NCBI GenBank assembly: GCA_900315265.1
Contig: OMYN01000006.1
Location: 1-64,000, forward strand
Direction of reading: 5' to 3'
Source: an uncultured Eubacteriales bacterium
GTDB lineage: Bacteria > Bacillota > Clostridia > Lachnospirales > Bianqueaceae
Length of the DNA: 64,000 bases
Every line of letters starts with the position of its first letter. Positions within the stretch are counted from its first letter, which is position 1. Made by a program: the position numbers and the translations under genes. The notes below the pieces were generated by a model, which searched no databases, was not told the origin of the DNA, and saw only the letters and a program-made list of their open reading frames with translations. Of the stretch, positions 39,758 through 64,000 are shown one piece after another.

Positions 39758-41713
39758 TTATCTTCTGCTTTCTTTCGCAGCTTCTCCGAGTTTTTCGGCT
39801 TCTTCCATCCAGGCCGCCCGGGATGCATCCGACGGCATGCGCCAGTCGCCCCGGGGCGACAGAGTGACCGAACCTACCTTAGGTCCGTCCGGCAGGCAGG
39901 ATCGTTTGAACTGCTGGGCGAAAAAGCGGCGGTAAAAGTTCCGCAGCCACTTTAAAAATTCCCGGCTTTCCATCTGCCCGGGCTGATCCAGTTCAAAGGC
40001 TTTTTGAGCCAGGCGGTAGATCTTGGCGGGGCCGAAGCCGAATCGAAGTACGTAATACAATATAAAATCGTGGATCTCATAAGGGCCGACGATCTCTTCG
40101 GTCTTCTGAGAGATCTGGCCGTCCTTGGCGGGAAGAAGCTCCGGGCTGACCGGTGTCGCCAGGATATCCCTGAGGATGGCGCTCAGCTCTTGCCCGCTGA
40201 GCAGGATGTCCGGGTAAGTTGCTACTGTCGAAACAATATGACGGACCAGGGTCTTGGGAATGGACGTATTGACCGCATACATGGACATATGGTCGCCGTT
40301 GTAAGTAGCCCAGCCCAAAGCCAGCTCCGACAGATCGCCCGTACCGATGACCATTCCGCCCGCCTGGTTGGCAATGTCCATCAGGACCTGAGTCCTTTCA
40401 CGGGCCTGAGAATTTTCGTAGGTGACATCCGTATTGCTGCTGTCATGCCCGATATCGTCGAAATGCTGCTGAACAGCCTTGGTGATATCGACCGTGATCA
40501 GCTTGGCTCCGATAACGTCCGCTAATTGTTCTGCATTGGAACGGGTCCGTTTGGTCGTACCGAAACATGGCATGGTAACGGCCGTGATATCGGACCGTTT
40601 CCTTCCCAATCGATCCATAGCGCCGGCGCAAACCAAAAGAGCCAGTGTCGAATCAAGGCCGCCGGACAATCCCACGACGACCGTTTTGGCATGGGTGTGG
40701 TCGATCCGTTTGACCAGGCCTGCTGTCTGCATGGCCAGGATCTTGCGGCACCTTACGGCCGTATCCTGATCCCCGTAAGGGACAAAGGGATTGCGGCTGA
40801 CCGGTCTGGTCAAAGTCGTGACCTCCGGATTCAAATTGAAGGATATGGTCTGATATGCGCTGTCGTCCGCCATGGGAAAGCTCTGGTTTTTCATGCGTTC
40901 CGAAGTGATCCGCTCCAGATCCAGCTCGCTTTCCGTTATCCCGTTGGTAAACAAAGGACTCTCCGCCAGAATGCTGCCGTTCTCGCCTATCAGATCGTGG
41001 CCGGCAAAGACCATGTCCGTGGTCGATTCTCCCGGTCCTGCATCCGCGTAGATATAACCGCAGTAAAGGCGGCCCGAGCAGGAAGCGATCAGTTGGCGCC
41101 GGTATTCTTCCTTACCGATGGTCTCGTCGGATGCGGAAGGGTTGATTACGACCGTTGCTCCGGCCAGGCAATGATGGGTCGCCGGAGTATCCGCCACCCA
41201 CAGGTCCTCGCAGATCTCGCAGGCCACCACCAGAGAAGGCATCTGACGGCAGGCAAATAAAAGTCTGGTCCCGAAGGGGACCGGGGCCCCATTAATTAGG
41301 ACAGTGCTGACCTCCTGAGGAGCAGGCCAGAAATTGCGATGCTCATAAAATTCCTGACTGTTGGGCAGATGGCTTTTGGGGACAGCTCCCAGGATGCGGC
41401 CCCGGTTCATAAAGACAGCGCAGTTAAAAAGCTTACCGCCTTTTACCAGAGGGCAGCCTACGATCACCAGCATGTCTCCGGTAAGGGAAGCCAGTCTGAC
41501 CAGTTCTTTTTCTGAAGCTGTTAAAAGGGTCCTCTGACCGAACAGATCTCCGCAGGTATAACCGGTCAAAGACAGTTCCGGGAATGCCAGTATCTTGACA
41601 TGGTCCCGGGCTGCCTTCTTCATCATGTCAAGGATACGGTCAGCGTTGACTTTAGGGTCCGCTACACAGACCCTGGGAGAAGCAGCCGCTACTTTTATAA
41701 ATCCGTCTTTCAT
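39758..41713 (-). CDS. nadE: Glutamine-dependent NAD+ synthetase
   Basis: Makes NAD+ from deamido-NAD+, ATP and glutamine. It has 651 residues: an N-terminal nitrilase-type glutaminase domain with Glu46, Lys113 and Cys168 as catalytic triad candidates, and a C-terminal synthetase domain with the ATP-pyrophosphatase loop SGGLDS (350-355). The long two-domain form means ammonia is channelled from glutamine. The start overlaps the ispE stop (ATGA). Confidence 0.96.
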   Translation of the reverse strand: MKDGFIKVAAASPRVCVADPKVNADRILDMMKKAARDHVKILAFPELSLTGYTCGDLFGQRTLLTASEKELVRLASLTGDMLVIVGCPLVKGGKLFNCAVFMNRGRILGAVPKSHLPNSQEFYEHRNFWPAPQEVSTVLINGAPVPFGTRLLFACRQMPSLVVACEICEDLWVADTPATHHCLAGATVVINPSASDETIGKEEYRRQLIASCSGRLYCGYIYADAGPGESTTDMVFAGHDLIGENGSILAESPLFTNGITESELDLERITSERMKNQSFPMADDSAYQTISFNLNPEVTTLTRPVSRNPFVPYGDQDTAVRCRKILAMQTAGLVKRIDHTHAKTVVVGLSGGLDSTLALLVCAGAMDRLGRKRSDITAVTMPCFGTTKRTRSNAEQLADVIGAKLITVDITKAVQQHFDDIGHDSSNTDVTYENSQARERTQVLMDIANQAGGMVIGTGDLSELALGWATYNGDHMSMYAVNTSIPKTLVRHIVSTVATYPDILLSGQELSAILRDILATPVSPELLPAKDGQISQKTEEIVGPYEIHDFILYYVLRFGFGPAKIYRLAQKAFELDQPGQMESREFLKWLRNFYRRFFAQQFKRSCLPDGPKVGSVTLSPRGDWRMPSDASRAAWMEEAEKLGEAAKESRR

Positions 41714-42687
41714 GATTCAAAATCCTCTTCTGACCCGTTTTCCGGCAGAGCCGTATCCCGGTCCGCTCCCTGCCTGCCGTCCTTTTCACATAGGTCACCT
41801 TGGCCGCCGTGATAGGGATCCTTTCCTCCGATCCGGCACATGATGATCTCCATGCGGCCCAGCTGCCTGCGCAGGGTCATAAGGGCCTTCTGTGCTTTCA
41901 AGGCATCATCGAAGATGCCGAAGACCGTGGGACCGCTGCCCGTCATCCGGGCTCCCAGAGCACCCAGATCCATCATAGTGCTTTCGATCCTGCCCAGTAC
42001 GGGATAGTGTTCGACAGCGATCTTTTCCAGCTGATTACGCATCATCGAAGCGCTTTTGGCAAGGTCGGACGCCTTCATTGCCTCGATCATACCGTCTATA
42101 TCGGCAGGAGGATTATCCGGGGTAACATGATACTGTTGATAGGACCAGGGAGTAGAGATCCCGAAATTGGGCTTTACCAGAATACACAAGGCCTCCGGAA
42201 AAGGATCGATCCTGGTCAATTTCTCCCCTCTTCCTTCGGCAAGACAGGTACCGCCGATCACACAGTAAGGGACGTCGGAGCCCAGCTGCTGAGCCAGTTT
42301 CATCAGGCGCTCGTCCGGTAGATCAAGCCCGTAAAGGCGGGAAGCTCCCCTTAGAACGGCCGCTGCATCCGCGCTGCCTCCGGCCATGCCGGCCGCCACC
42401 GGGATCTTTTTAAAAAGACGGACATGTACCCCGCCGATCCCGTAGGTCTTCTGCAGCAGGCGTACGGCTTTGACAGCCAGGTTGCGTTCGTCTTTTACCA
42501 GATAAGGCAGATTGCACTCCAAGCTGGCTTCAAAACGCGGACGTTTATAAAGGTCGATCTCATCCCAGACATCGACCTGCTGCAGGATCATGGTTACTTC
42601 GTGATAGCCGTCCGCCCGTATGCCACCCACATTCAAAGCCAGGTTGACTTTGGCAAAAGCGCGTTCAAAGACACCGCTTTCCTTCAT
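41710..42687 (-). CDS. ispE: 4-diphosphocytidyl-2-C-methyl-D-erythritol kinase
   Basis: GHMP kinase of the non-mevalonate isoprenoid pathway. It has 325 residues. The GHMP ATP loop PVAAGMAGGSADAAA is at 96-110; AFAKVNLALNVGG at the start carries the substrate-site residues. It is about 35-40 residues longer than usual because of a polar C-terminal extension (GGKDPYHGGQ ... EEDFES) reaching into the nadE overlap. The ATG is only 17 nt after the base of a terminator stem, so no promoter fits between. Confidence 0.95.
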   Translation of the reverse strand: MKESGVFERAFAKVNLALNVGGIRADGYHEVTMILQQVDVWDEIDLYKRPRFEASLECNLPYLVKDERNLAVKAVRLLQKTYGIGGVHVRLFKKIPVAAGMAGGSADAAAVLRGASRLYGLDLPDERLMKLAQQLGSDVPYCVIGGTCLAEGRGEKLTRIDPFPEALCILVKPNFGISTPWSYQQYHVTPDNPPADIDGMIEAMKASDLAKSASMMRNQLEKIAVEHYPVLGRIESTMMDLGALGARMTGSGPTVFGIFDDALKAQKALMTLRRQLGRMEIIMCRIGGKDPYHGGQGDLCEKDGRQGADRDTALPENGSEEDFES

Positions 42688-42701
42688 AGCACTGCCTCCT
42701 T

Positions 42702-42739
42702 AAAAAAGCGGCCCCGCAAGCAAGCCCGGCCGCCGCTTT
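42702..42739 (-). terminator. Terminator hairpin abutting ispE
   Basis: AAAGCGGC/GCCGCTTT (42705-42712 with 42732-42739) with a GC-rich interior, then TTTTTTAAGGAGG in the RNA: the T tract runs directly into the ispE ribosome-binding site. It is the second of two hairpins after pgcA. Confidence 0.75.
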
Positions 42740-42743
42740 ATGG

Positions 42744-42780
42744 AAAGGGCCTTCAGCAAGAACCTGCCGAAGGCCCCTTT
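42744..42780 (-). terminator. First hairpin after the phosphoglucomutase gene
   Basis: GGGCCTTC/GAAGGCCC (42747-42754 with 42769-42776), extended by AAA/TTT with one bulge, 16 nt beyond the pgcA stop. The following TTTCC is a poor T tract, so alone it would terminate weakly. Confidence 0.55.
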
Positions 42781-42795
42781 TGGTCAAAAATGAAC

Positions 42796-44487
42796 TTATG
42801 CGTTGGGAAGAACGTCTTTCTTCAAGGTTTCGATCATCGTTTCCGCTTCTTTTTCGTCCTTGCCCTTGACGCCGAAATAGAACTTGATCTTGGGCTCCGT
42901 TCCCGAAGGACGTACACAGAACCAGCAGTTGTCCTCCAGCGTGAAGCGAAGCACATTGCTCTTGGGCAGGCCGTCGATCCCCTTGGAGTAATCCTTCAAT
43001 ACCTGGACTTTCAGGCCGCCGTAGCTATCCTTGTGATTATTGCGCAGGCTGTCCATCAGATCCCGGATCTTATCAGCCCCTTCAAGGCCCTCGAAAGTAA
43101 GGGAGATGGTCTCTTCTTTATAGTAGCCGTACTTCTTATACAAAGCTTCCAGGGCATCGACCAGGGTCATGCCCTTGGCCTTATAAATAGCTGCCATCTC
43201 GCTGATCATCAGGACCGCGCTGACGGAGTCCTTATCACGTGCATAGGTGCCGCACAGATATCCGTAGCTTTCCTCGAAACCGAACAGATAATGTCCGATC
43301 CCGGTGTTTACAGAATTGGTGATCTGCTGGCCGATGAATTTGAAGCCGGTCAGAACATCGCGCACTTCGACTCCGTAAGACTCGGCAATAGCGCGGGCCA
43401 TCTCGGTCGAAACGATGGTTTTTACGATAAAGCCATCCTTGGGCAGCGTGTCGGTCTTTTTACGGGCTTCCAGAATATAGGAAAGAAGCAGGGTCCCGGT
43501 CATATTGCCTGTAAACTGATGGAAAACACCATCTTTGGTGCGGACCAGAATGCCCATACGGTCAGCATCCGGGTCAGTTGCGATGCAAATGTCCGCGCCG
43601 ATCTGATCAGCCAGCTTTTGGGCCGGTTCGAAGACGCTCAGCACCTCGGGGTTCGGGTAAGGGCAGGTCGGGAAGTCGCCGTCCGGCATTTCCTGGCTGG
43701 GAACGATGACAGGTTCGAAACCGGCCTGTTTCAGTGCCCTCATGACCGGCATACGTCCCGTTCCGTGAAGAGGGGTATAAACGATCTTCAAATCTTTTGC
43801 GTATTTTTTGACCGCTTCTTTATCAATGATCATATCGGAAGCGGTATCGATGAATTTCTTATCGATGTCTTCGCCGATCTCAATGTAAAGTCCTTTGGCT
43901 TCCGCTTCGCTGCGGGGCATAGCCCTAACCCCGTCGAACAGATCGACCTTTTCGACCTCATCGATGATCTCTTCGTCCATTGGAGGCGGTACCTGGCATC
44001 CGTCCTCCCAGTAAGCCTTGTAGCCGTTGTACTTGGACGGGTTGTGGCTGGCCGTGATAACGACTCCGCCTTTGCATCCCAGTGTACGGATGGCAAAGGA
44101 AAGTTCCGGGGTAGGACGCAGCGACTCGAACACATAGGCCTTCATCCCGCTGGCGTTAGCGACTGCCGCTGTTTCACGGGCGAAAACATCCGACATATGA
44201 CGGGAGTCATAAGCAACGGCGATACCCTTTTCTTTCGCTTTCGGGTCTTTCTTGATCAGGTAGTTGACCAGACCCTGAGTTGCTCTGCGGACCGTATATA
44301 CATTCATACGGTTGGTACCTGCCGCGATCACGCCCCGAAGGCCGCCGGTACCGAATTCAAGATCCTTGTAGAATCGTTCCTGGATCTCTTTGTCATCATC
44401 TTTGATCGAACGAAGCTCTTCTTTGGTCGCCTCGTCGATGGCGTCACTCGTGAGCCACTGCTGATAGCGCTCTTTATAATCAGCCAT
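42796..44487 (-). CDS. pgcA: Alpha-phosphoglucomutase/phosphomannomutase family
   Basis: Interconverts hexose 1- and 6-phosphates, feeding UDP-glucose and glycogen or capsule synthesis. It has 563 residues. The phosphoserine loop TASHNPSKYNGYK has S147 as catalytic serine, the metal loop DPDADR is at 305-310, the sugar loop GFEESYGYL and the C-terminal phosphate-binding RPSGTEPKIKFY are intact. The length fits Firmicutes PgcA. It follows the PEGA protein gene by 36 nt and ends in two hairpins. Confidence 0.95.
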   Translation of the reverse strand: MADYKERYQQWLTSDAIDEATKEELRSIKDDDKEIQERFYKDLEFGTGGLRGVIAAGTNRMNVYTVRRATQGLVNYLIKKDPKAKEKGIAVAYDSRHMSDVFARETAAVANASGMKAYVFESLRPTPELSFAIRTLGCKGGVVITASHNPSKYNGYKAYWEDGCQVPPPMDEEIIDEVEKVDLFDGVRAMPRSEAEAKGLYIEIGEDIDKKFIDTASDMIIDKEAVKKYAKDLKIVYTPLHGTGRMPVMRALKQAGFEPVIVPSQEMPDGDFPTCPYPNPEVLSVFEPAQKLADQIGADICIATDPDADRMGILVRTKDGVFHQFTGNMTGTLLLSYILEARKKTDTLPKDGFIVKTIVSTEMARAIAESYGVEVRDVLTGFKFIGQQITNSVNTGIGHYLFGFEESYGYLCGTYARDKDSVSAVLMISEMAAIYKAKGMTLVDALEALYKKYGYYKEETISLTFEGLEGADKIRDLMDSLRNNHKDSYGGLKVQVLKDYSKGIDGLPKSNVLRFTLEDNCWFCVRPSGTEPKIKFYFGVKGKDEKEAETMIETLKKDVLPNA

Positions 44488-44523
44488 GTAAAGAAACCTC
44501 CTGTAAAATATGATTCTTGCCGA

Positions 44524-46539
44524 TCAATTTCCGCTGTCTGAATCTGATCCTGTTTCTTCGCCATTGCCGGATCCGGAGTTTGGATCATCCGGTGTTGAAC
44601 TGGGATCCGGCTGCTCCGGACTGCTTTCCGGCTGACTGGAAGACTGACTGGGCTCTTCCTGCCTGGACGACTCACTTGATTCGCTGCTTGATTCAGACGA
44701 ATTTTCGACCGGCGTAAAACCCGAAAAGTACAGGACCTGGTCGGTCAGATCGTCTCCGATGGTCAGGGTCTGGCTCTGATCATAGTAGCCGGTCTTGGTG
44801 CAGGTAACCGTGTAGGTGCCTGCCTCAAGTTCTGTCGTAAAGCTGGTCTCTGTCGAAACCTCCCCCTGATAGGTGGAATCGATATAAAGCGAAACCCCGT
44901 CAGCACTGACTGAAATGGTCACTTTTGCCGTCTTCTTCTCGAAGGTGACCGTCACTTCCTGATAGGGCTGAGAAACCGTAAAGGGAATCGTCTGGTCGTC
45001 GTAGCCGTCCGCCTTGATCACAGCATTGTAGTCACCGTAAGTCAGACTGATCTGGTCGGATGGGTCGTAGGTCTTTCCTTTGATTTCAACAGTAAACGTC
45101 ACATCCTGATCGGTCGTAAAGGAAACTTTTCCTTTCTTCTCTTGATAGGTCGGAGCCGTCACCGTGACGGTTTCTCCTGCCGTCACAAAAACGTTCTCCT
45201 GATAGGCGGTACTGGTCTGATTGTCCTTGGTCACATTGATCTTGACCAAAGCAGACCCCTCTTCCACCTGCGTCTTCATGCTGTCGCTGCTGATGGACTG
45301 GCTGATAGGACTGCCGTCCGAAGGTGTGATCACAAGCTGTCCTCCCACATCCTTATAACTGGACAGATTGAGGACCTCGACCGTACCCGTACTCTCTTCT
45401 TTTTCGATCTCGATGGTATATATATGCTTGTCTAAAATATAAGCCGTAAAGACTGTATTTTTATTGATGGCCCGCCGGTCGTAGGCCTTGCCCTGATAGC
45501 GGCAGACCGTATAGTCATCGACCGTATACGGAACTTTATCGATCACGATGCTGGTCTCGGCAGGAGTTACGCCGCTGACGCCCGTCAGCTTGACTACGTC
45601 CTTGGCGCTCTGCACCTTCGTTACCTTAGGCTGGTCTCCTTTATCATAACTCAGCGTGATGATATCGCCTACCTGGAACTTCGACAAAGCCACCTCATCA
45701 TCAAAATCCGAAAAACTCATTTCCTTCTTGGTATCCGCGCTGTAGACCAGCATGGTCTTATGTTTGGTATCAAGATTGGTGATGACTCCGCTGACCGAAA
45801 CCGATTCTGTCTCTACAAGGCTTGAAGAGGAATCATCGACCGGCACGGTTATTTTATGCTGGCCGAAAATCAGTACAACAGCGATCGCTGCCAGAAGAAG
45901 AACGATAATGGCGGAAATCACGCCGATAGTCAGGCCCTGGTGCTTATCCCGGTCATCGTCGTCGTCATTTTCGTCATCGCTGTTGTAATAACTGTCGTCA
46001 TCCTGCTCATCATAATCATAATCGACGTCGCTCCGGTAATCGGTATCTTCTGTCCGGTCGTCCATTGACGGGGGATATCCTTCCCCGGAATCTGACGGAT
46101 GCTCCGGCTCCTGGTAGGATGAGGAGCCCTCTGCATAGCTTTGGCTGTTGTTAAGAGGTTCTGTCTCAAATCGTCTGGTCGTACCCATATCCTGGCTGTT
46201 TGAAAAACCTTCTTCCTGCTGTCTTCTTTCTTCCTCTTCCATCGAAGTGATCTGTACCGATGGATTGAGCCGCTGCATAGAATACCGTTCTGTATCTGAA
46301 AATTCTTCGATGTCCGGTCCTTTCTGCGAAGCACTGCCTTCCGGAAGATTCCGCATGCGGCTTCTGGAAGCGGCTTCATCCGCTTTCATAGCAGCGCTTT
46401 TCCGGGCATTCTCTAAATTATGGCGGGCATGTTCCCGTTCATAAGCCTGCCTGGCATCGCTTTCGACCTGTTCACGGTCACGGAACAGATCGGTAAACTC
46501 AACTTGATCATCGCCCTCATAATGATCCTGATTGCTCAT
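44524..46539 (-). CDS. Membrane-anchored PEGA-domain protein, function unknown
   Basis: Not a characterised family that I recognise as a whole. It has 671 residues from the ATG at 46539 (MSNQDHYEGDD), preceded by GGAGGAG at 5 nt; an upstream start is less likely. Layout: residues 1-200 are cytoplasmic, polar and very acidic (runs of Asp near 180-197); one transmembrane helix at about 203-226; then an extracytoplasmic region of beta-rich segments. Near 540-605 a PEGA repeat is clear (GVSLYIDSTYQGEVSTET, LEAGTYTVTCTKTGY), with a related unit before it (PSDQISLTYGDYNAVIKADGY). The last 65 residues are Ser/Pro/Glu low complexity. It lies between cca and pgcA. It may bind wall or surface polysaccharide; that is inference. 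Confidence 0.85.
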   Translation of the reverse strand: MSNQDHYEGDDQVEFTDLFRDREQVESDARQAYEREHARHNLENARKSAAMKADEAASRSRMRNLPEGSASQKGPDIEEFSDTERYSMQRLNPSVQITSMEEEERRQQEEGFSNSQDMGTTRRFETEPLNNSQSYAEGSSSYQEPEHPSDSGEGYPPSMDDRTEDTDYRSDVDYDYDEQDDDSYYNSDDENDDDDDRDKHQGLTIGVISAIIVLLLAAIAVVLIFGQHKITVPVDDSSSSLVETESVSVSGVITNLDTKHKTMLVYSADTKKEMSFSDFDDEVALSKFQVGDIITLSYDKGDQPKVTKVQSAKDVVKLTGVSGVTPAETSIVIDKVPYTVDDYTVCRYQGKAYDRRAINKNTVFTAYILDKHIYTIEIEKEESTGTVEVLNLSSYKDVGGQLVITPSDGSPISQSISSDSMKTQVEEGSALVKINVTKDNQTSTAYQENVFVTAGETVTVTAPTYQEKKGKVSFTTDQDVTFTVEIKGKTYDPSDQISLTYGDYNAVIKADGYDDQTIPFTVSQPYQEVTVTFEKKTAKVTISVSADGVSLYIDSTYQGEVSTETSFTTELEAGTYTVTCTKTGYYDQSQTLTIGDDLTDQVLYFSGFTPVENSSESSSESSESSRQEEPSQSSSQPESSPEQPDPSSTPDDPNSGSGNGEETGSDSDSGN

Positions 46540-46586: not shown

Positions 46587-47798
46587 TTATACCATATCCG
46601 ATAGAGGTGCGCTGAAAAAATGGTCCTTTGCCGCCCCTATCAGACGTTCTTTTGTATTCAAGGCCGGATCTTCAACGACCTTCTGCTGCAGATAGGCCAG
46701 GACCCGGCCTACCTCTTTTCCTTTAGGGATACCGGCTCCTATCAGATCGTCCCCGTCAACAGCCAGTTCTATGACGGCTATAGGCGCATCCTTTTGAGAC
46801 CGGTACAGACCGTCAAGCTTAGCTTTTTGCCCGCTGCCGACCCTGCCGGCCGCGTAAAAAAGCTGGATCAGGCCCGGCACCGCTTCTTTACCGACTGCCA
46901 GCATCAGCCTGCGCATCGCTGCCTCGTCCTCTGGGATAGGATCATTGATATGAGTAGTCCAGAGGACCGCGGCTTTAATGGTGTCATTATCGAATTTCAG
47001 CTCTTTCAGCACCTTCCGGCACTTATCCGGACCGCCCGGATACAAAAAGGCAGCAAAACGGAGTGCTTTTACAGGCTCCACTTTCCCCGGTGCTTCCATA
47101 TCCGCCAGGGACAGATCTTCCGGATGGGGGATCAGATAGTCAAACAGATTCAGATCCTTCAGCATAGAAATCTTCTGGGGATGACTGCCTGTCAGCATCT
47201 TGGTCAGTTCTTCCTGAACTCTTTCCCGGCTGACCTTAAGCAGGGTCGGAGCCAGTTTGATGGCAGCTTCCCGGGTAGCCGGATCGATCGAAAATCCCAG
47301 CCTGCCGGCGAAGCGGACGGCTCTGAGCATGCGAAGGGCGTCTTCGTTAAAGCGTTTTTCGGGATCGCCGACACAGCGGATGACCTTTTTTTCCAGATCC
47401 CGGCGGCCGCCGAAATAGTCGACGAGCCCTCTGTCGGGATGGTATGCCATGGAATTGATAGTAAAATCGCGGCGGGCTACATCTTCGTAAAGACTGGCCG
47501 TATACTCCACATGGTCAGGCCTGCGGTGGTCGCTGTACTTACCGTCCAGGCGGTAGGTCGTTACCTCATAGCCGGCCCTGCCCATCAGCACCGTGACCGT
47601 CCCGTGTTCGATCCCCGTATCAAAAGTATGGGAAAAGAGTAGTTTGACTTCTTCGGGCCGGGCAGACGTCGTAATATCCCAGTCTTCCGGTTCGATACCC
47701 ATCAGGGCGTCGCGTACGCAGCCGCCGACAGCATAGGCTTCAAAACCGGCGGATTCCAGCCGGCGGATGATCTTTTCTGCGTTATCGTCCAGTCTCAC
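46587..47798 (-). CDS. cca: CCA tRNA nucleotidyltransferase
   Basis: Adds or repairs the 3' CCA of tRNAs (class II nucleotidyltransferase). It has 403 residues starting at a GTG supported by GGAGGG 7 nt upstream. The motif GGCVRD (25-30) and the metal aspartates D39-W-D41 are present, then the RRDFTINSMAY and RMLRAVRFAGRLGF motifs for base recognition. No HD domain is evident. Length fits Firmicutes enzymes. It begins 24 nt after a terminator stem. Confidence 0.95.
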   Translation of the reverse strand: MRLDDNAEKIIRRLESAGFEAYAVGGCVRDALMGIEPEDWDITTSARPEEVKLLFSHTFDTGIEHGTVTVLMGRAGYEVTTYRLDGKYSDHRRPDHVEYTASLYEDVARRDFTINSMAYHPDRGLVDYFGGRRDLEKKVIRCVGDPEKRFNEDALRMLRAVRFAGRLGFSIDPATREAAIKLAPTLLKVSRERVQEELTKMLTGSHPQKISMLKDLNLFDYLIPHPEDLSLADMEAPGKVEPVKALRFAAFLYPGGPDKCRKVLKELKFDNDTIKAAVLWTTHINDPIPEDEAAMRRLMLAVGKEAVPGLIQLFYAAGRVGSGQKAKLDGLYRSQKDAPIAVIELAVDGDDLIGAGIPKGKEVGRVLAYLQQKVVEDPALNTKERLIGAAKDHFFSAPLSDMV

Positions 47799-57313: not shown

Positions 57314-58858
57314 TTACAGATAATTTTCAGGATCCTGCAATACTCCGTAATAGTAAACTTCAAAGTGCAGGTGAGGGCCGGTCGACATACCGGTCGTACC
57401 GACATAACCGATCACCTGACCCTGGTAAACGGTATCCCCGGCGCTGACAGCGACCGAACTCATATGTCCGTACAGGGTGCTCAGGCCGTTGCCGTGATCG
57501 ATGACGACATAATTGCCGTATCCGCTGCCCCATCCGTCAGTGTTGGCTGTAACGACCGTACCGCCCTGGGCAGCATAGATCGCATCGCCGTAATTTGCCA
57601 GAATATCGATCCCGTTATGGCTCCTCCATTCCTGAAGGATCGGATGGAAACGCATACCGTACAGAGAAGACAGGACATAATGCCAGCCACCGCCGTCCAA
57701 AGGCCAGCCCAGGACACCGCTGCCGATGCCCGGCCAGGTATTCCAGTAGCCGTCCGAGCGGGCCCGCCCGTCAGCAGGATCTGCCGTACCGGCCGTATTG
57801 CTGCCTCCGCCGCTGGAAGAACCGCCGCCGTTTGACCCGCTGTTTTCTGAATTACTAGATTCGCCGTTGTTACTACCGCTGTTTTCGGTATTGCCTGCTT
57901 CACCGCTGCCGCCGGCATTGCTATTGCTTCCGCCATTGCCACCTGTCTCCGACGATGAAGATTCCGCATTAGCCGTATTTGCCTGCTGTGCTTTTGCTTC
58001 CGCCTCTTTTTCAGCCTCCAGCCGGGCCGCCTCTTCGGCTGCAGCCTGCTCCGCGGCCAGCCGCTGTTTCTCCTGAGTCTGAGCATCCGCATTGGCCTGC
58101 AGCATGGCAACGATCGAATCCTGCTGTTCCTGCTGCTGTTGAGCCAAGAGTTCCAGGGCTACTTTATCATCGTTTAAAGAATCAAGAGTAGCCTGCTTTT
58201 CATCCAAAGCGGACTGCAGCTGCTGCTGTTGGTCTTCCAGATCGGCTTTGTTGGTCTCCAGATCCTTCTGAGTCGCTTCGATCTGGGATTTGGACTGCTC
58301 GATCTTTGCCTGGACAGCTTTCATGTTGTTCATGACATTATTGTCATAATCAACTACCTGGGAAACATATTCCAGACGGGAGAAGAAGTCGGAAATACTG
58401 CTGGCATCCAGCAGGACTTCCAGATAACTGGTGCGGTCGTTTTCGTACATCATCTGTACACGGCCCTTAAACTTATCGTAATAGGTAGCCAGCTCAGCCT
58501 TCTGCTCTTTCAGCTGCGCTTTGGTGTCTTCCAGTGTCTTCTCATTATCAGCGATCTTATTGTTCAGATCGGTGATCTTCTCACCGACCGACTGGATCTG
58601 ATCATTGATGTCGGCAACTTCACTCGTTACCGCATCTACTTTTTCCTGCGCGTCCTGCAGCTGCTGCTGAGTCGCGTTTTGCAGTTCCTGGTTTTGCTGC
58701 TGCTGGTCTTCCAGATTCTGCTGCTCCTGCTGCATCTGGCTCAGATCATCATCTGCCAGTGCCTGAACGCAGCAGCCGGCTATGATCGAAACGGCCAGCA
58801 CAAGAGCCAGGACAGCCGTTACGATCCGTTTCATCCTGTTTTTAGCGATTGCTTTCAT
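57314..58858 (-). CDS. Secreted coiled-coil peptidoglycan hydrolase (M23/LytM), PcsB/CwlO-like place
   Basis: Has 514 residues: a signal peptide (basic start MKAIAKNRMKR, hydrophobic core about 12-28, Ala-rich cleavage region near QALADD), a long Gln/Glu-rich coiled coil (about 35-270), a Gly/Ser/Asn linker (about 300-355) and a C-terminal LytM domain. Zinc ligands fit H414 and D418 (HNGID) and H498 in HLHFE, with H465 in YGHM as catalytic helper. It lies 30 nt after ftsX. Coiled-coil hydrolases encoded next to FtsEX (PcsB, CwlO) are activated through FtsX, so the same control is expected here. Confidence 0.93.
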   Translation of the reverse strand: MKAIAKNRMKRIVTAVLALVLAVSIIAGCCVQALADDDLSQMQQEQQNLEDQQQQNQELQNATQQQLQDAQEKVDAVTSEVADINDQIQSVGEKITDLNNKIADNEKTLEDTKAQLKEQKAELATYYDKFKGRVQMMYENDRTSYLEVLLDASSISDFFSRLEYVSQVVDYDNNVMNNMKAVQAKIEQSKSQIEATQKDLETNKADLEDQQQQLQSALDEKQATLDSLNDDKVALELLAQQQQEQQDSIVAMLQANADAQTQEKQRLAAEQAAAEEAARLEAEKEAEAKAQQANTANAESSSSETGGNGGSNSNAGGSGEAGNTENSGSNNGESSNSENSGSNGGGSSSGGGSNTAGTADPADGRARSDGYWNTWPGIGSGVLGWPLDGGGWHYVLSSLYGMRFHPILQEWRSHNGIDILANYGDAIYAAQGGTVVTANTDGWGSGYGNYVVIDHGNGLSTLYGHMSSVAVSAGDTVYQGQVIGYVGTTGMSTGPHLHFEVYYYGVLQDPENYL

Positions 58859-58888
58859 TCTTCGTAACCTTACTCCTTTCCCGATCGA

Positions 58889-59806
58889 TCAAACCTTCAG
58901 GTGGCGGCGGATGGAAATAGTACTTCCAAGCGCACCGACCACTATACTAAGAATCAAGAAAATAGGAAGCAGCCCATGCATGATCTCTCCCAGGCTCAAG
59001 AAAGTAAAGAGCTGGGAAATAGACGAAAAGCGCTCTGCCATCAGTTTTACCAAAGCGTTATAGCCGAAGAAGACCAAAGCAGTCGGCAGGATCGCTCCCA
59101 AAAAACCGATCAGGATACCTTCTACCAAAAAGGGCAGCCTGACAAAGGAGTCCGTCGCGCCGATATACTTCATGATGCTGATTTCATTTCTTCTGGTATA
59201 GACCGAGACCCGGATGGTGTTGGTGATCAGAAGAAGGGCTACGAAAATAAGGAAGAGGATCAGTGCCCCGCCCACATACGTCACCAGCTTGGCAAAAGAA
59301 GCCAGCGTCCTTGACGCATTTGCAGAATAACTGATCTTTCGTATCTGACTGAAGGACTTAAGAAAATCCACGACCTGCTGCTGTTTCTCGGCGGAAACAG
59401 CGTAGACCTCGAAGTTGGCTGAATTTTTAAGAGGGTTGTCGTTGTCAAGTTGTTCTACCAGATCCGAATCATTGGCGGAATCTCCCAGCATCTCGGATTT
59501 AAAATCCTTCCATGCTTCATCGGAAGAAACATAATTCCAGCTGGCAATATCCTGATTCTCATCTAATTTTTTAGAGATATCATCGATCTCTTCCTGGCTG
59601 AGCTGGCCGTTCAGGAAAGCAACGATGCCCAGGTTTTTATCAAGGTCATTGGTAAAGCTGCGGACATTCATGACCAGGCAGTATACGATACCGAAGATGA
59701 TCAGGACGGCGGAAATGGTGCCGACCGAAGCCAGCGACATAAGACCGTTCCTGAAGACGCTTTTGAAGCCGTCCCGTATACAGCTGTTGACAGTTCTAAT
59801 CTTCAT
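58889..59806 (-). CDS. ftsX: Cell-division ABC transporter permease FtsX
   Basis: Membrane partner of FtsE that activates peptidoglycan hydrolases rather than moving a substrate. It has 305 residues from the ATG at 59806 (MKIRTVNSC), with AGGAGG 8 nt before it; two upstream in-frame codons are rejected as too close. Four transmembrane helices: about 20-45, then the extracellular loop (about 50-170) and three clustered at about 175-295. The start overlaps the ftsE stop by 11 nt. Confidence 0.95.
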   Translation of the reverse strand: MKIRTVNSCIRDGFKSVFRNGLMSLASVGTISAVLIIFGIVYCLVMNVRSFTNDLDKNLGIVAFLNGQLSQEEIDDISKKLDENQDIASWNYVSSDEAWKDFKSEMLGDSANDSDLVEQLDNDNPLKNSANFEVYAVSAEKQQQVVDFLKSFSQIRKISYSANASRTLASFAKLVTYVGGALILFLIFVALLLITNTIRVSVYTRRNEISIMKYIGATDSFVRLPFLVEGILIGFLGAILPTALVFFGYNALVKLMAERFSSISQLFTFLSLGEIMHGLLPIFLILSIVVGALGSTISIRRHLKV

Positions 59807-60482
59807 CGTCATACCCTCCTGTTTCCGAATCGCGGACAACAACTCCGCGCACCAGGTGGATGACGCGTTTCTGCATCTCGTTTACGATATCTTTATCATG
59901 GGTCGCAACAATAACGGTCGTGCCCCGGCGGTTGATGGCCTCAAGCACCTCCATGATCTCCTCGGAATTGCGGGGATCGAGGTTGCCGGTAGGTTCGTCC
60001 GCGATAACGATCGAAGGATTGTTGACAATAGCCCGGGCGATGGCCGTGCGCTGCTGTTCACCGCCGGAGATCTCATTAGGCATGCTCTTGGATTTGTGGG
60101 ACAGCCCGACCAGATTCAGGGCAGCCGGCACCGACCGGCGGATCTTACGCTGGGAGACTTCGATTACCTCCAGGGCGAAAGCTACGTTTTCGTACACCGT
60201 CCGTTTGGGAAGAAGGCGGTAATCCTGGAAAACGATGCCCATATTCCGCCTCAGGGCTGCAACTTTTCCTCTCCTAAGTTTGGTAATATCCTTGCCGTCG
60301 ATAATGATCGACCCTTCGGTGGGCTTGAGTTCACGCATCAGAAGGCGCAAAAGCGTACTCTTGCCCGAGCCGCTCTCGCCGACGATGAAGACAAACTCAC
60401 CGTCATTGATGCGAAGATTCACGTCGTCAACGCCCGTAACGTTTCCTTCGTAAATCTTCGTCACATGATTCAATTCAATCAT
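59796..60482 (-). CDS. ftsE: Cell-division ATP-binding protein FtsE
   Basis: ATPase of the FtsEX complex. It has 228 residues with Walker A GESGSGKST (35-43), the signature ISGGEQQR, Walker B ending IADEPTGNLD and an H-loop (VATHDKD). Full length. ftsE-ftsX-hydrolase is a compact operon; the sequence before it (60483-60578) shows no clear promoter, and the repeat array lies beyond. Confidence 0.96.
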   Translation of the reverse strand: MIELNHVTKIYEGNVTGVDDVNLRINDGEFVFIVGESGSGKSTLLRLLMRELKPTEGSIIIDGKDITKLRRGKVAALRRNMGIVFQDYRLLPKRTVYENVAFALEVIEVSQRKIRRSVPAALNLVGLSHKSKSMPNEISGGEQQRTAIARAIVNNPSIVIADEPTGNLDPRNSEEIMEVLEAINRRGTTVIVATHDKDIVNEMQKRVIHLVRGVVVRDSETGGYDDED

Positions 60483-60578
60483 CTATGACTCCTGTAAATT
60501 GATTTATTGCTCTTCTCTTTTTCAGGTTTTCCCCCGCCCTTCTGCGCTTTTTTAAGCTGTCTCTATGAGCGGTTAAAG

Positions 60579-60655
60579 GCACGTTTCGTGCCTTGCACCT
60601 TCTGTGCCTTGCATGTTCCATGCCCTGCGTGTGCCGCGCCTTGCACGTTCCGTGT
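60579..60655. repeat. Array of five 16-bp self-complementary repeats
   Basis: Units at 60579-60591 (short first), 60592-60607, 60608-60623, 60624-60639 and 60640-60655 follow with an exact 16-bp period; plus-strand consensus CTTGCAYGTTCCRTGC. On the minus-strand RNA each unit can form a 5-bp hairpin with a 3-nt loop (GCATG-GAA-CATGC or GCACG-AAA-CGTGC) separated by AAG. Between units stem bases change in a paired way (C-G to T-A) in the first and third units; the other three carry one mismatch each. It begins 15 nt beyond the stop of the PucR-type regulator. Confidence 0.85.
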
Positions 60656-60670
60656 CTTTTTATACGGACA

Positions 60671-61771
60671 TTATTTGAAACCGTTTTTCTCCATATAGGT
60701 CATGTACTTGGCAACCATCAGCGCGATCTTGAAGGTAATGGCATCGTCAAAGGTACGCACATCCAGCCCGGTATTTTTCTGAAGTTTATCCAGACGGTAT
60801 ACCAGGGTATTGCGGTGGATGTACAGCTGACGGGAAGTCTCCGAAATATTCAGATTATTCTCGAAAAACTTATTGACCGTGTTAAGGGTCTCTTCATCGA
60901 AGTCCTCGACCTTGATATCTTTGAAGATCTCATTGATATACATCTTGCACAAAGACAGGGGCAGCTGATAGATCAGACGGCCGATGCCCAGGCGGTTGTA
61001 ATTGATGACATACTTCTCTTCGTAGAAGATCTTTCCGACTTCCAGCGCGATCTTTGCTTCCTTATAGGAACGGGAAATATCTTTCAGATCGGTCACGACG
61101 GAACCAAGCGAAATACGCACATGGCCCAGCGCCTCCGAACTTAAGGTATCGGAAATGGTCAGGGCGACCTTTTCCAGTGCCTGACGGGAGGAATCCTCCT
61201 CCACCTCTTTGACCAGGATGATATTGTCCTCGTCTACCGCCGTAATAAAGTCTTTCGTTTTGACCGGGTAAATGCTGCGGATGATCTCCATCACGCTGGC
61301 ATTCGTGTCCTTATCGTTCTTGGACTCGACCAGATAAACGACACGCTTGACATTATTATCGATGCGCAGCTTTTTAGCCCGCATGTAAATATCTACCAGA
61401 AGCAGATTATCAAGCAGCAGATTTTTGATAAAGTTATCTTTGTCGAAGCGCTCTTTATAAGCGGTCAGAAGGCTCTGGATCTGAAAAGCCGCGATCTTTC
61501 CGACTTTATAAGCTTCCTCATCCTCGCCGCGGATAGCGACGATATACTCGACCTCATTGTTGTCGAAGACTTTAAAAAGCTGATAACCGGCCAGGAGCAT
61601 ACTTTCCGCCTGGGTATTCATCATTTCCGGGACCAGCGAGATCTTGCGGACGTTGCGGTTTTCTTCCGTTGTAGCCAGCAGGCTGCCTTCGACATCCATT
61701 ACCGAGATATCGAAGCGAGTGATCGATTTGAGACCATCAATCGTTGTTTGAAGAATCTGATTTGAGATCAC
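60671..61771 (-). CDS. PucR/CdaR-type transcriptional regulator
   Basis: Has 366 residues from a GTG at 61771 with AGGAGG 7 nt before it (first residues MISNQILQTTIDGLK); a frame extension is rejected. N-terminal putative sugar-diacid-type sensor domain (about 1-130), a central GGDEF-related region (VRISLGSVVTDLKDISRSYKEAKIAL, about 225-255) and a C-terminal helix-turn-helix (NISETSRQLYIHRNTLVYRLDKL, about 305-335) characteristic of the CdaR/PucR family. The effector and targets are unknown; the next genes are ftsEX and lysC, neither a usual target. A palindrome covers its promoter, so it may be autoregulated. Confidence 0.88.
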   Translation of the reverse strand: MISNQILQTTIDGLKSITRFDISVMDVEGSLLATTEENRNVRKISLVPEMMNTQAESMLLAGYQLFKVFDNNEVEYIVAIRGEDEEAYKVGKIAAFQIQSLLTAYKERFDKDNFIKNLLLDNLLLVDIYMRAKKLRIDNNVKRVVYLVESKNDKDTNASVMEIIRSIYPVKTKDFITAVDEDNIILVKEVEEDSSRQALEKVALTISDTLSSEALGHVRISLGSVVTDLKDISRSYKEAKIALEVGKIFYEEKYVINYNRLGIGRLIYQLPLSLCKMYINEIFKDIKVEDFDEETLNTVNKFFENNLNISETSRQLYIHRNTLVYRLDKLQKNTGLDVRTFDDAITFKIALMVAKYMTYMEKNGFK

Positions 61772-61860
61772 ACTAACACCTCCTATTTCGTCCTTACCTA
61801 GCAAATTGTAACATAATCAACCTTGAAATTCCATAGAAACCCGCAATATTTCCGATATAG

Positions 61861-61889
61861 ATTGTAACAATTCTGTTACATCTTGCGAA
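61861..61889 (-). promoter_or_regulatory. Candidate promoter with overlapping palindrome
   Basis: TTCGCA (61884-61889), 17 bp, TACAAT (61861-61866) on the minus strand. A perfect 18-bp inverted repeat TGTAACA-ATTC-TGTTACA (61863-61880) covers the -10 box and most of the spacer. A second TACAAT with the same TGTAACA half-site lies at 61805-61813 but lacks a good -35. This is a candidate operator for the PucR/CdaR-type gene that follows. Confidence 0.6.
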
Positions 61890-61923
61890 CATTTCATGCG
61901 GTATCTTAAGATCTCGGCTCGTT

Positions 61924-63264
61924 TTAATCTACTTCTGACTGTTCTTTTTCTGCCTTTTGGCGATATTCATAAAGGCATTCGACTGTCTTTTCGAAGTCTT
62001 TTTCATCGACGCCCACGATCAAAGTGATCTCGTTGACGCCCTGGATCACCAGACGTACACCGATATTCTGGTCGGCAATGGCCTTAAGGATCTGATAAGT
62101 AGAACCGATCACATCCGCGATCCTTTGTCCTACGACCGCGACCAGAGCCAGATTGCGTTCGACTTTCATGCTGTAGGGATCGATCTCCCGGCGGATCCTG
62201 CGCAGGATACTCTCCTCTTTTCCCTTGATCTCATCCGCGCTGACTACGACCGTCATCGTACCGATGCTGGAGGGCACATGCTCGACCATGACCATGGCCT
62301 CCTCGAAGACCTGAAGGATCTTGCGGCCGAAAGTCAGACGGTCCGAACCGATATCCTTCTCAAAAGACATGGCCACAAAGCCTTTTTTGCCGGTGATGCC
62401 GGTAATAAAGGCATGTTTTCCCGTGATCTGGTCGTCCGGCAGGATCCAGCTGCCCACATCCTGAGGACGGTTGGTGTTTTTGATGTTGATAGGGATGCCG
62501 GCCGAACGGGCGGGAAAAATGGCCTCTTCATGAAAGACCTGGGCTCCCATGTAAGACAGCTCCCTGAGTTCGCCGTAGCTGACCTCTCTGACCGATCCGG
62601 GATCGTCGATAATGTTGGGATCTGCTACCAGAAATCCCGACACATCGGTCCAGTTCTCATAGACATCGACATTCATCGCCTTGCTGACGATGGATCCAGT
62701 GATATCGCTTCCGCCCCGTGAGAAGGTGCGGGTACGGCCGCTTTCATTGGCTCCGTAAAAGCCCGGCATGACAAACTTCTCCATACCGGAAAATTTCTCA
62801 AATGCCGCGTAGGTCAGATTTTCATCGAACTGACCGCGGGCGTCGAACCGGATACACTCCTCCGGATCCAGAAAAGGATAGTCCAGGATCTTTGACAACA
62901 GACGTCCGCACAGATATTCGCCCCGACTCACCAGATATTCCCGTGACAGGCCTTCTTCCATGCGGCTGATAATGGTCCGGTACTCGTTTTCCAGTGAAAA
63001 GTCCAGGCCCAGATCACGGATGATCTCGTTGTAACGCTCTTCGATCTTTTTGAAGTATTCTCTTCCTTGGTCGGAATCGTGTTTCTGGATCTCAAAGCAT
63101 TTAATAAGCATATCCGTTACTTTGACATCCCCCTTGAAGCGCCTGCCCGGCGCGGACGGGATCACATAAAGGCGGGAAGGATCGGCTTTGATAATGTCGA
63201 CGACCTTCTGAACATGCTCGGCGTCCGCAAGGGAACTGCCGCCGAATTTAACTGTTTTTCTCAT
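61924..63264 (-). CDS. lysC: Aspartate kinase
   Basis: Phosphorylates aspartate, first step to lysine, threonine, methionine and diaminopimelate. It has 446 residues from the ATG at 63264 (MRKTVKFGGSSLADA), chosen because GAGG is 7 nt before it. The kinase domain (KFGGSS, RGGSDITGS, WTDVSGF) is followed by two ACT-type regulatory regions (about 290-430, e.g. LVIQGVNEITLIVGVDE). Long single-chain form without homoserine dehydrogenase. It follows the ftsZ terminator by about 45 nt. Confidence 0.93.
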   Translation of the reverse strand: MRKTVKFGGSSLADAEHVQKVVDIIKADPSRLYVIPSAPGRRFKGDVKVTDMLIKCFEIQKHDSDQGREYFKKIEERYNEIIRDLGLDFSLENEYRTIISRMEEGLSREYLVSRGEYLCGRLLSKILDYPFLDPEECIRFDARGQFDENLTYAAFEKFSGMEKFVMPGFYGANESGRTRTFSRGGSDITGSIVSKAMNVDVYENWTDVSGFLVADPNIIDDPGSVREVSYGELRELSYMGAQVFHEEAIFPARSAGIPINIKNTNRPQDVGSWILPDDQITGKHAFITGITGKKGFVAMSFEKDIGSDRLTFGRKILQVFEEAMVMVEHVPSSIGTMTVVVSADEIKGKEESILRRIRREIDPYSMKVERNLALVAVVGQRIADVIGSTYQILKAIADQNIGVRLVIQGVNEITLIVGVDEKDFEKTVECLYEYRQKAEKEQSEVD

Positions 63265-63306
63265 CAGCATGCCTCGTTAAGGGAGAAATTTCGGACTGTC
63301 GGAGTC

Positions 63307-63336
63307 AAAAAAAGCGGTCTGCAGTTGCAGACCGCT
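63307..63336 (-). terminator. Intrinsic terminator after ftsZ
   Basis: A perfect 11-bp stem AGCGGTCTGCA/TGCAGACCGCT (63313-63323 with 63326-63336) with a 2-nt apex, followed in the RNA by TTTTTTTGAC, 17 nt beyond the ftsZ stop. Confidence 0.9.
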
Positions 63337-63353
63337 CTGTCTGGCTTACTTAC

Positions 63354-64000
63354 TTACTTTCTTTTCTTGCGCTGTAGGAAACCGGGAATGTCGATCGGGA
63401 CTTCATCGGTATCGGTCTTATCGGATGAAAAAGAAGAATAGGAATCCGCCGTGCTCGTCTGTACCGGAGTGCGGTAGGAAGAACCCTGGAAACCGGACGC
63501 CTGTCCGACCGGCTTGAAGTTCTTGGAAGTCAGCTCAACAGCGCTGTCTTCGGTCTCGGTTTTTTTAGCCGCGGGCTCATTAGTATCGGTCTTGGTCGCG
63601 TCATTATCACCGAAATCGGTAGCGATAACGGTTACCATGATCTCATCGTCCATCGAATCATCCGTAGAAGTACCGATGATGATCTCCGCGTTTTCATCGA
63701 CCAGAGAACTGATATAATCGGAAACTGCATCAAATTCATACAGAGTCATATCGGGACCGCCGCAGATATTGACCAGAACAGCCTTTGCGCCTTCGATCGA
63801 GGTATCCATCAAAGGAGAAGCAATGGCCTGCTCTGCCGCTTTTCTGGCTTTATCCTCACCGGTAGCGCGGCCGATACCCATATGGGCAAGGCCTTTGTCA
63901 TGCATTACCGTGCGGACATCGGCAAAGTCAAGGTTGATCATGCCGGGCCGGTAGATCAGATCGGAAATGCCCTGAACGCCTTCCCTGAGGACTTCGTCCG
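63354..64000 (-). CDS. ftsZ: Cell-division protein FtsZ, 3' part
   Basis: The frame is open to the window end, so the N-terminal GTP-binding half lies outside. The visible 214 residues start at DEVLREGVQGISDLI and include the catalytic T7 loop NLDFADV, the GIGRATGEDKA segment, the C-terminal domain, a Thr/Ser/Asp-rich linker (about 60 residues) and the conserved tail DEVPIDIPGFLQRKKRK that binds FtsA and SepF-type partners. An internal ATG at the MINLDF position is not the real start. Confidence 0.95.
   Translation of the reverse strand, partial: DEVLREGVQGISDLIYRPGMINLDFADVRTVMHDKGLAHMGIGRATGEDKARKAAEQAIASPLMDTSIEGAKAVLVNICGGPDMTLYEFDAVSDYISSLVDENAEIIIGTSTDDSMDDEIMVTVIATDFGDNDATKTDTNEPAAKKTETEDSAVELTSKNFKPVGQASGFQGSSYRTPVQTSTADSYSSFSSDKTDTDEVPIDIPGFLQRKKRK

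Follow-up and report, generated by a model that had tools for sequence, protein, structure and literature searches.

A PEGA-containing envelope protein of one Clostridia order: a possible wall-zone rod with a lineage-specific cytoplasmic arm

The window, by which we mean the whole stretch of 64,000 nucleotides analysed here, carries a minus-strand frame that is open from an ATG at 46539 to a stop ending at 44524 and translates to a PEGA-type envelope protein of 671 residues (44524–46539). An alternative in-frame ATG further upstream would give 685 residues, but since a GGAGGA-type ribosome site immediately precedes the ATG at 46539, the shorter product is the likelier. The gene lies 47 bp downstream of cca (46587–47798), which encodes a CCA tRNA nucleotidyltransferase (NF009814, E = 7.6e-98, over its cut-off, and Pfam), and 36 bp upstream of a phosphohexomutase gene (42796–44487) with four Pfam domains (PF02878, PF02879, PF02880, PF00408); all three are on the same strand. 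The original prediction, made from the sequence, had placed the gene between cca and pgcA. The position and the first name hold, and the name pgcA is provisional because the phosphohexomutase reaches no NCBIfam cut-off. An ispE-type gene, also on the minus strand (41710–42687), was assigned from its Pfam GHMP kinase N and C domains and is syntenic in loci of the family. Scanning for promoters and terminators was uninformative, with 7 promoter-like sites against 5.7 expected and 13 terminator-like sites against 8.2. A 705-residue frame antisense to the phosphohexomutase gene (42424–44541, plus strand) is probably a by-product of codon usage. Upstream, positions 57314–64000 hold division and wall genes (ftsE-like, ftsX, a PcsB-type M23 hydrolase gene and then ftsZ, crossing the window edge), and beyond ftsZ the contig continues with genes that by inspection are ftsQ-, ftsW- and murD-like. 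The apparent truncation of ftsZ is an artefact of the window edge, as its frame is intact in the longer contig.

A single transmembrane helix at approximately residues 207–225 (45865–45921; all features of the protein are on the minus strand) marks the hydropathy maximum of 3.4 and aligns with the helices of relatives. Residues 1–206 before it (45922–46539) form an acidic, probably disordered cytoplasmic region, judged by composition to contain 28% Asp and Glu with a net charge of –35, which apart from short motifs cannot be aligned across genera. The protein thus has the size, the acidic cytoplasmic stretch of about 200 residues and the one helix originally described for it, and the beta-rich outside part and Ser/Pro/Glu tail of that description are likewise borne out, by an all-beta AlphaFold2 model of residues 240–615 and by the last 57 residues (44527–44697), of which 82% are Ser, Glu, Pro, Asp, Thr or Asn. 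An FtsQ-like protein (L196:6704-7765) has a long C-terminal tail too, rich in Ser, Asp and Gln, so a tail of this kind may be common to outside proteins of the lineage and not peculiar to the PEGA protein.

The AlphaFold2 model, for which the input was the window protein with 13 relatives, has a mean pLDDT of 89.8 and a pTM of 0.50. Because the latter is so low, we treat the individual domains as confident and their mutual arrangement as not. In the model of the outside part, a pair of OB-like barrels is followed by an Ig/FnIII-like domain and then by two PEGA-type modules. The first barrel (residues 240–314; 45598–45822) matches CusF with a VIA Z of 10.3 (r.m.s.d. 2.2 over 73 aligned residues). 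The second (residues 311–383; 45391–45609) has a pLDDT of 91.8 in a model of its own, but its top VIA Z is just 6.8, with no fold match at Z ≥ 8; as the majority of its rows are OB-type barrels, we would call it OB-like at best. The Ig/FnIII-like domain (residues 382–466; 45142–45396) gives a VIA Z of 9.0 to a rhamnogalacturonan lyase domain (r.m.s.d. 2.5, 80 aligned), and in fold comparison resembles FnIII- and Ig-like domains from polysaccharide-active enzymes. Where a PEGA repeat had been predicted, there are at least two modules, both transthyretin/CnaB-like in fold, as PEGA should be. The repeat itself is confirmed at residues 539–597 (44749–44925) by PF08308 (E = 8.2e-6; 26.1 bits against a curated cut-off of 20.8), with VIA Z of 8.3–8.5 to carboxypeptidase D TTL and CnaB domains. 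Just before it, at approximately residues 468–536 (44932–45138), the model places a PEGA-like/transthyretin-like module with a conserved YGDY..GY pattern, which receives no Pfam call in the window protein. Two relatives (L039:3611-6796 and L042:8503-11358) have 7 and 6 PEGA stretches respectively against the usual 1–3, which lengthens the outside rod; variable copy number is what would be expected of a spacer, and we counted it in favour of a rod.

Conservation was scored over 29 order-wide sequences, in which 51 positions are shared by 60% or more, and glycine occupies all three that never vary. There is no catalytic-looking set among these 51 positions, and those outside the membrane are mostly glycine and other structural positions. 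Metal binding, raised by the CusF-like first barrel, was dropped, as the 29 sequences share no conserved set of metal ligands. The folds are common rod-building ones, and a shared fold shows neither ligand nor function.

Beyond PEGA, which accounts for approximately 60 of the 671 residues, no Pfam or NCBIfam model covers the protein, in keeping with the original remark that no function is known for the whole architecture. Of the two outcomes named originally as refuting, a full-length match to a characterised family and an unconserved neighbourhood, neither occurred. The window protein scores over the cut-off of no NCBIfam model, four diverse relatives match no NCBIfam family at E ≤ 0.001, and the two barrels and the Ig-like domain reach the cut-off of no Pfam or NCBIfam model. 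No convincing relative came out of sequence searches against solved structures. Models for DUF3244, a carboxypeptidase regulatory domain and a toxin B-subunit fell below cut-off and were taken to reflect shared small beta folds and not relationship. We took the same view of a phage tail tube C-terminal domain, which matches the same residues as PEGA marginally over its cut-off, at 24.9 against 24.1 bits. Among the open-licence papers listed for PEGA, Clostridia or Lachnospirales, none treats the protein by title or abstract. The target is one of an unnamed, order-restricted family that contains a known small domain.

Searching with the single protein found relatives in 18 of the 19 genomes and all five genera of the window's family. 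With a profile of the outside part (A2), 265 of the 295 genomes of the order carry the target, usually in one copy, in 116 of 129 genera and 24 of 25 sampled families; the 30 genomes giving A2 no match include one (G001) from the window's own genus. A broader profile (A5) was run at E ≤ 1e-8 on 148 genomes of the class and matched six, exactly those that belong to this order; the other 142, all from other orders, gave no match. Named relatives come mostly from uncultured Clostridia or Bacillota, many of them from rumen; Lachnospiraceae and Lachnoclostridium also appear, so the order is probably the one to which the Lachnospiraceae belong. A conserved, usually single-copy gene that keeps its place across five of five family genera and 116 of 129 order genera is more than chance would leave.

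The cytoplasmic arm is conserved quite differently. In 62 relatives surveyed, between 6 and 339 residues precede the helix, with a net charge anywhere from +17 to –74; in many families the arm is shorter than 25 residues, and some arms consist of simple repeats. Long acidic arms are typical of the window's family and, in part, of one other family. In f6 (all five loci) and f21 (its single locus) the protein looks like a lipoprotein with no cytoplasmic part, by a crude pattern that flagged 9 of the 62, with L105 looking false by eye and L126 looking missed. We therefore do not take the acidic domain to define the protein: since the arm shrinks or, in lipoproteins, vanishes, the conserved function lies outside the membrane.

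Short motifs were counted in the tails of 122 proteins, of which four were left out for want of a recognisable helix in the stretch fetched and a further 30 for having fewer than 40 residues or no clear helix, leaving 88. The helix of L027, missed in the survey of 62, was set by hand, and because starts were placed at the first possible codon some tails are overlong. In the window protein, EFTDLF at residues 15–20 (46480–46497) is of a DLF type found in 10 of the 17 tails of its family (shuffle mean 0.46 of 88 tails). QITSME at residues 96–101 (46237–46254), LTSVE in relatives, was recognised from alignment columns; this LTS motif occurs in 7 of the 17 family tails and also in 8 of 23 tails of f5. 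The pattern G[VAM]xYxP[SGH] is present in 22 of the 88 tails against a shuffle mean of 0.01 (f11 9/9, f16 3/3, f23 2/2, f18 1/1, f19 4/7, f5 3/23), and is common to the otherwise hard-to-align tails of six families (L086, L088, L155, L177, L180 and others). In f17, 21 of 22 tails carry T[IVQ][RK][LIV]D. As the patterns were picked post hoc and the sequences are related, these counts speak for conservation, partly through common descent, and not for independent origin. The motifs would nonetheless suit short docking peptides within a disordered arm.

Wide variation in arm length and charge, simple repeats and a variable number of PEGA copies are what one might see if the protein were a passive surface stalk whose cytoplasmic arm is unselected filler enlarged by repeat expansion. 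Nevertheless, arms that otherwise defy alignment retain short motifs far more often than shuffled ones do, and near-universal retention argues for a selected function, making such a stalk unlikely.

The gene neighbourhood was compared across 56 wide loci, 16 from the window's family and 40 from others, which were hand-picked for family spread from mainly stronger matches; those close to contig ends cannot reveal all neighbours. Neighbours were identified with TIGR02906, TIGR02855, PF12673 and PF04932 on scanned representatives and by BLAST clustering for the remaining members. Order-wide, the target usually has cca, a CotS-type spore-coat kinase, the phosphohexomutase, YabG and SipL for neighbours. 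The linkage that the original prediction proposed surveying is conserved: cca lies within 3.5 kb upstream in 15/16 family loci and 15/40 others, and the phosphohexomutase within 0.6 kb downstream in 12/16 and 15/40 respectively. A CotS-type kinase is found within 2.5 kb upstream in 4/16 family loci and 23/40 others, and among the latter yabG is downstream in 8 and sipL in 13. Downstream of the phosphohexomutase, 10 of the 56 loci have a small gene for a lipoprotein-like product that contains a PrcB_C domain (e.g. L028:11738-12178). In six of the 40 other-family loci (L078, L079, L085, L096, L113, L114) the gene directly upstream is of the Wzy_C/O-antigen-ligase-like type, and the one of these six that was scanned matches PF04932 with E = 8e-19.

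The presence of the phosphohexomutase and of the O-antigen-ligase-like enzyme at these loci would suit an accessory or scaffold protein that works with them in building or attaching envelope polysaccharide. Many families with the target, however, lack both neighbours at its locus, and the Ig-like domain only resembles carbohydrate-binding folds, so that we consider this role improbable. Joint function with the phosphohexomutase, hinted at originally by its place next door, is at most possible; many genomes retain the target with no phosphohexomutase gene at its locus.

The spore-coat kinase, YabG and SipL raise the question of sporulation. SpoIVA is found in 216 of the 295 order genomes, and the target in 195 of these and in 70 of the 79 SpoIVA-negative ones (a hand tally of the search rows, 8 of the 216 lacking a match over the SpoIVA family cut-off), from which we conclude that target and SpoIVA are unrelated. 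YabG is present in just 40 of the 295. Within the window's family, SpoIVA and Spo0A over cut-off coincide in 4 of 19 genomes (G007, G008, G010, G011); CotS goes beyond weak matches in these four, where it sits between cca and the target, and as fragments in the 66%-complete G009. The three family genera that lack SpoIVA have no CotS at the target locus, yet 13 of their 14 genomes keep the target, counting fragments in G005, the exception being G001. The window's own genome has no match to SpoIVA, YabG or CotS and no Spo0A over cut-off. The target keeps its position beside cca even where no CotS gene separates the two. As CotS is the usual neighbour order-wide, it would most simply have disappeared together with sporulation and left the target in place, the direction of change being what we infer. 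The target is not a sporulation gene: a sporulation function deduced from neighbourhood alone was rejected on the distribution of SpoIVA, CotS and Spo0A, and function should not be read off its sporulation neighbours. Linkage to spore genes is conserved in sporulating relatives, which leaves room for an additional sporulation role. That the protein belongs primarily to sporulation or the spore envelope, made together with its CotS, YabG and SipL neighbours as their frequency at these loci might suggest, is very improbable given how often it is kept where SpoIVA, Spo0A and CotS are absent.

PEGA is described for cell-surface proteins of archaea and bacteria (PMC2447325); the window protein resembles such proteins in having one PF08308 module over cut-off and a second by structure, and differs in having two barrels and an Ig-like domain outside the PEGA model. 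The best whole-model Foldseek match is the TIE protein of Bacillus anthracis (6fwv; E = 7.8e-11, global TM 0.33, 13% identity), which is a modular stalk. This likens the target to the CnaB/transthyretin-like stalks of pilins and adhesins, from which it differs by inspection in being anchored by an N-terminal helix and not by a sortase signal.

The nearest analogue in working is MapZ of Streptococcus pneumoniae, whose disordered cytoplasmic arm binds FtsZ via a conserved N-terminal stretch (PMC7055233) and whose outside part comprises two subdomains with a serine-rich linker between them (PMC4931243). The likeness is one of layout only: a single helix, a cytoplasmic arm with a conserved N-terminal stretch and a multi-domain outside part, the target's N-in helix and disordered arm being predicted from hydropathy and composition. 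The target's outside folds are of other types, and some of its relatives are lipoproteins. No sequence relation between the two was found, and no MapZ family appears among the 11 Pfam matches at E ≤ 1 or the fold matches listed, from which MapZ-type domains could still escape.

Our best reading, which we hold tentatively, is that the target is a housekeeping, non-enzymatic rod or tether of the envelope in one Clostridia order, with a lineage-specific cytoplasmic docking arm. Order-wide retention with no match in the other orders sampled, independence of SpoIVA, the place beside cca, the confident all-beta modular model, the lack of a catalytic-looking set and the motifs favour it. The rod, comprising the two OB-like barrels, the Ig/FnIII-like domain and at least two PEGA modules, would rise from the membrane within the wall zone, anchored by the helix or, in some families, by lipid, and would most likely bind or span wall polymer. 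In helix-anchored lineages, the window's included, the arm motif would most likely dock a protein of the cytoplasm, for example one acting in growth or division, and bring it to the rod. Of the 19 family genomes 17 have PASTA domains, the window's among them, so a PASTA-type kinase may exist there; a Ser/Thr kinase of this type might control the arm, although phosphorylation is a guess. Some families manage without the arm, as their lipoprotein forms show, which counts against the docking-arm part; the 30 order genomes with no match count against the reading too. The original prediction of a signal or tether between envelope and cytoplasm accordingly survives in part: it is plausible for helix-anchored forms because several lineages keep their own short arm motif, whereas the acidic domain is not the core and it is the outside rod that is conserved.

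A bolder version of the rod-and-arm reading, which we think rather unlikely, is that of an order-specific, near-universal wall-to-cytoplasm organiser with a MapZ-like part in growth or division, in which the outside rod is conserved and the docking peptide exchanged between lineages (DLF/LTSVE, GVxYxPS, TIRLDDIN, or nothing). We know of no MapZ-like organiser in these bacteria.

Some 90% of the sampled genomes of the order keep the target, also after loss of sporulation, and it is thus probably important for the envelope. Gut bacteria that carry it are abundant, and still the family has had neither a name nor a model beyond one small domain. If the motifs do dock the growth or division machinery, they would offer a direct handle on how wall and cytoplasm are coupled in these poorly studied cells.
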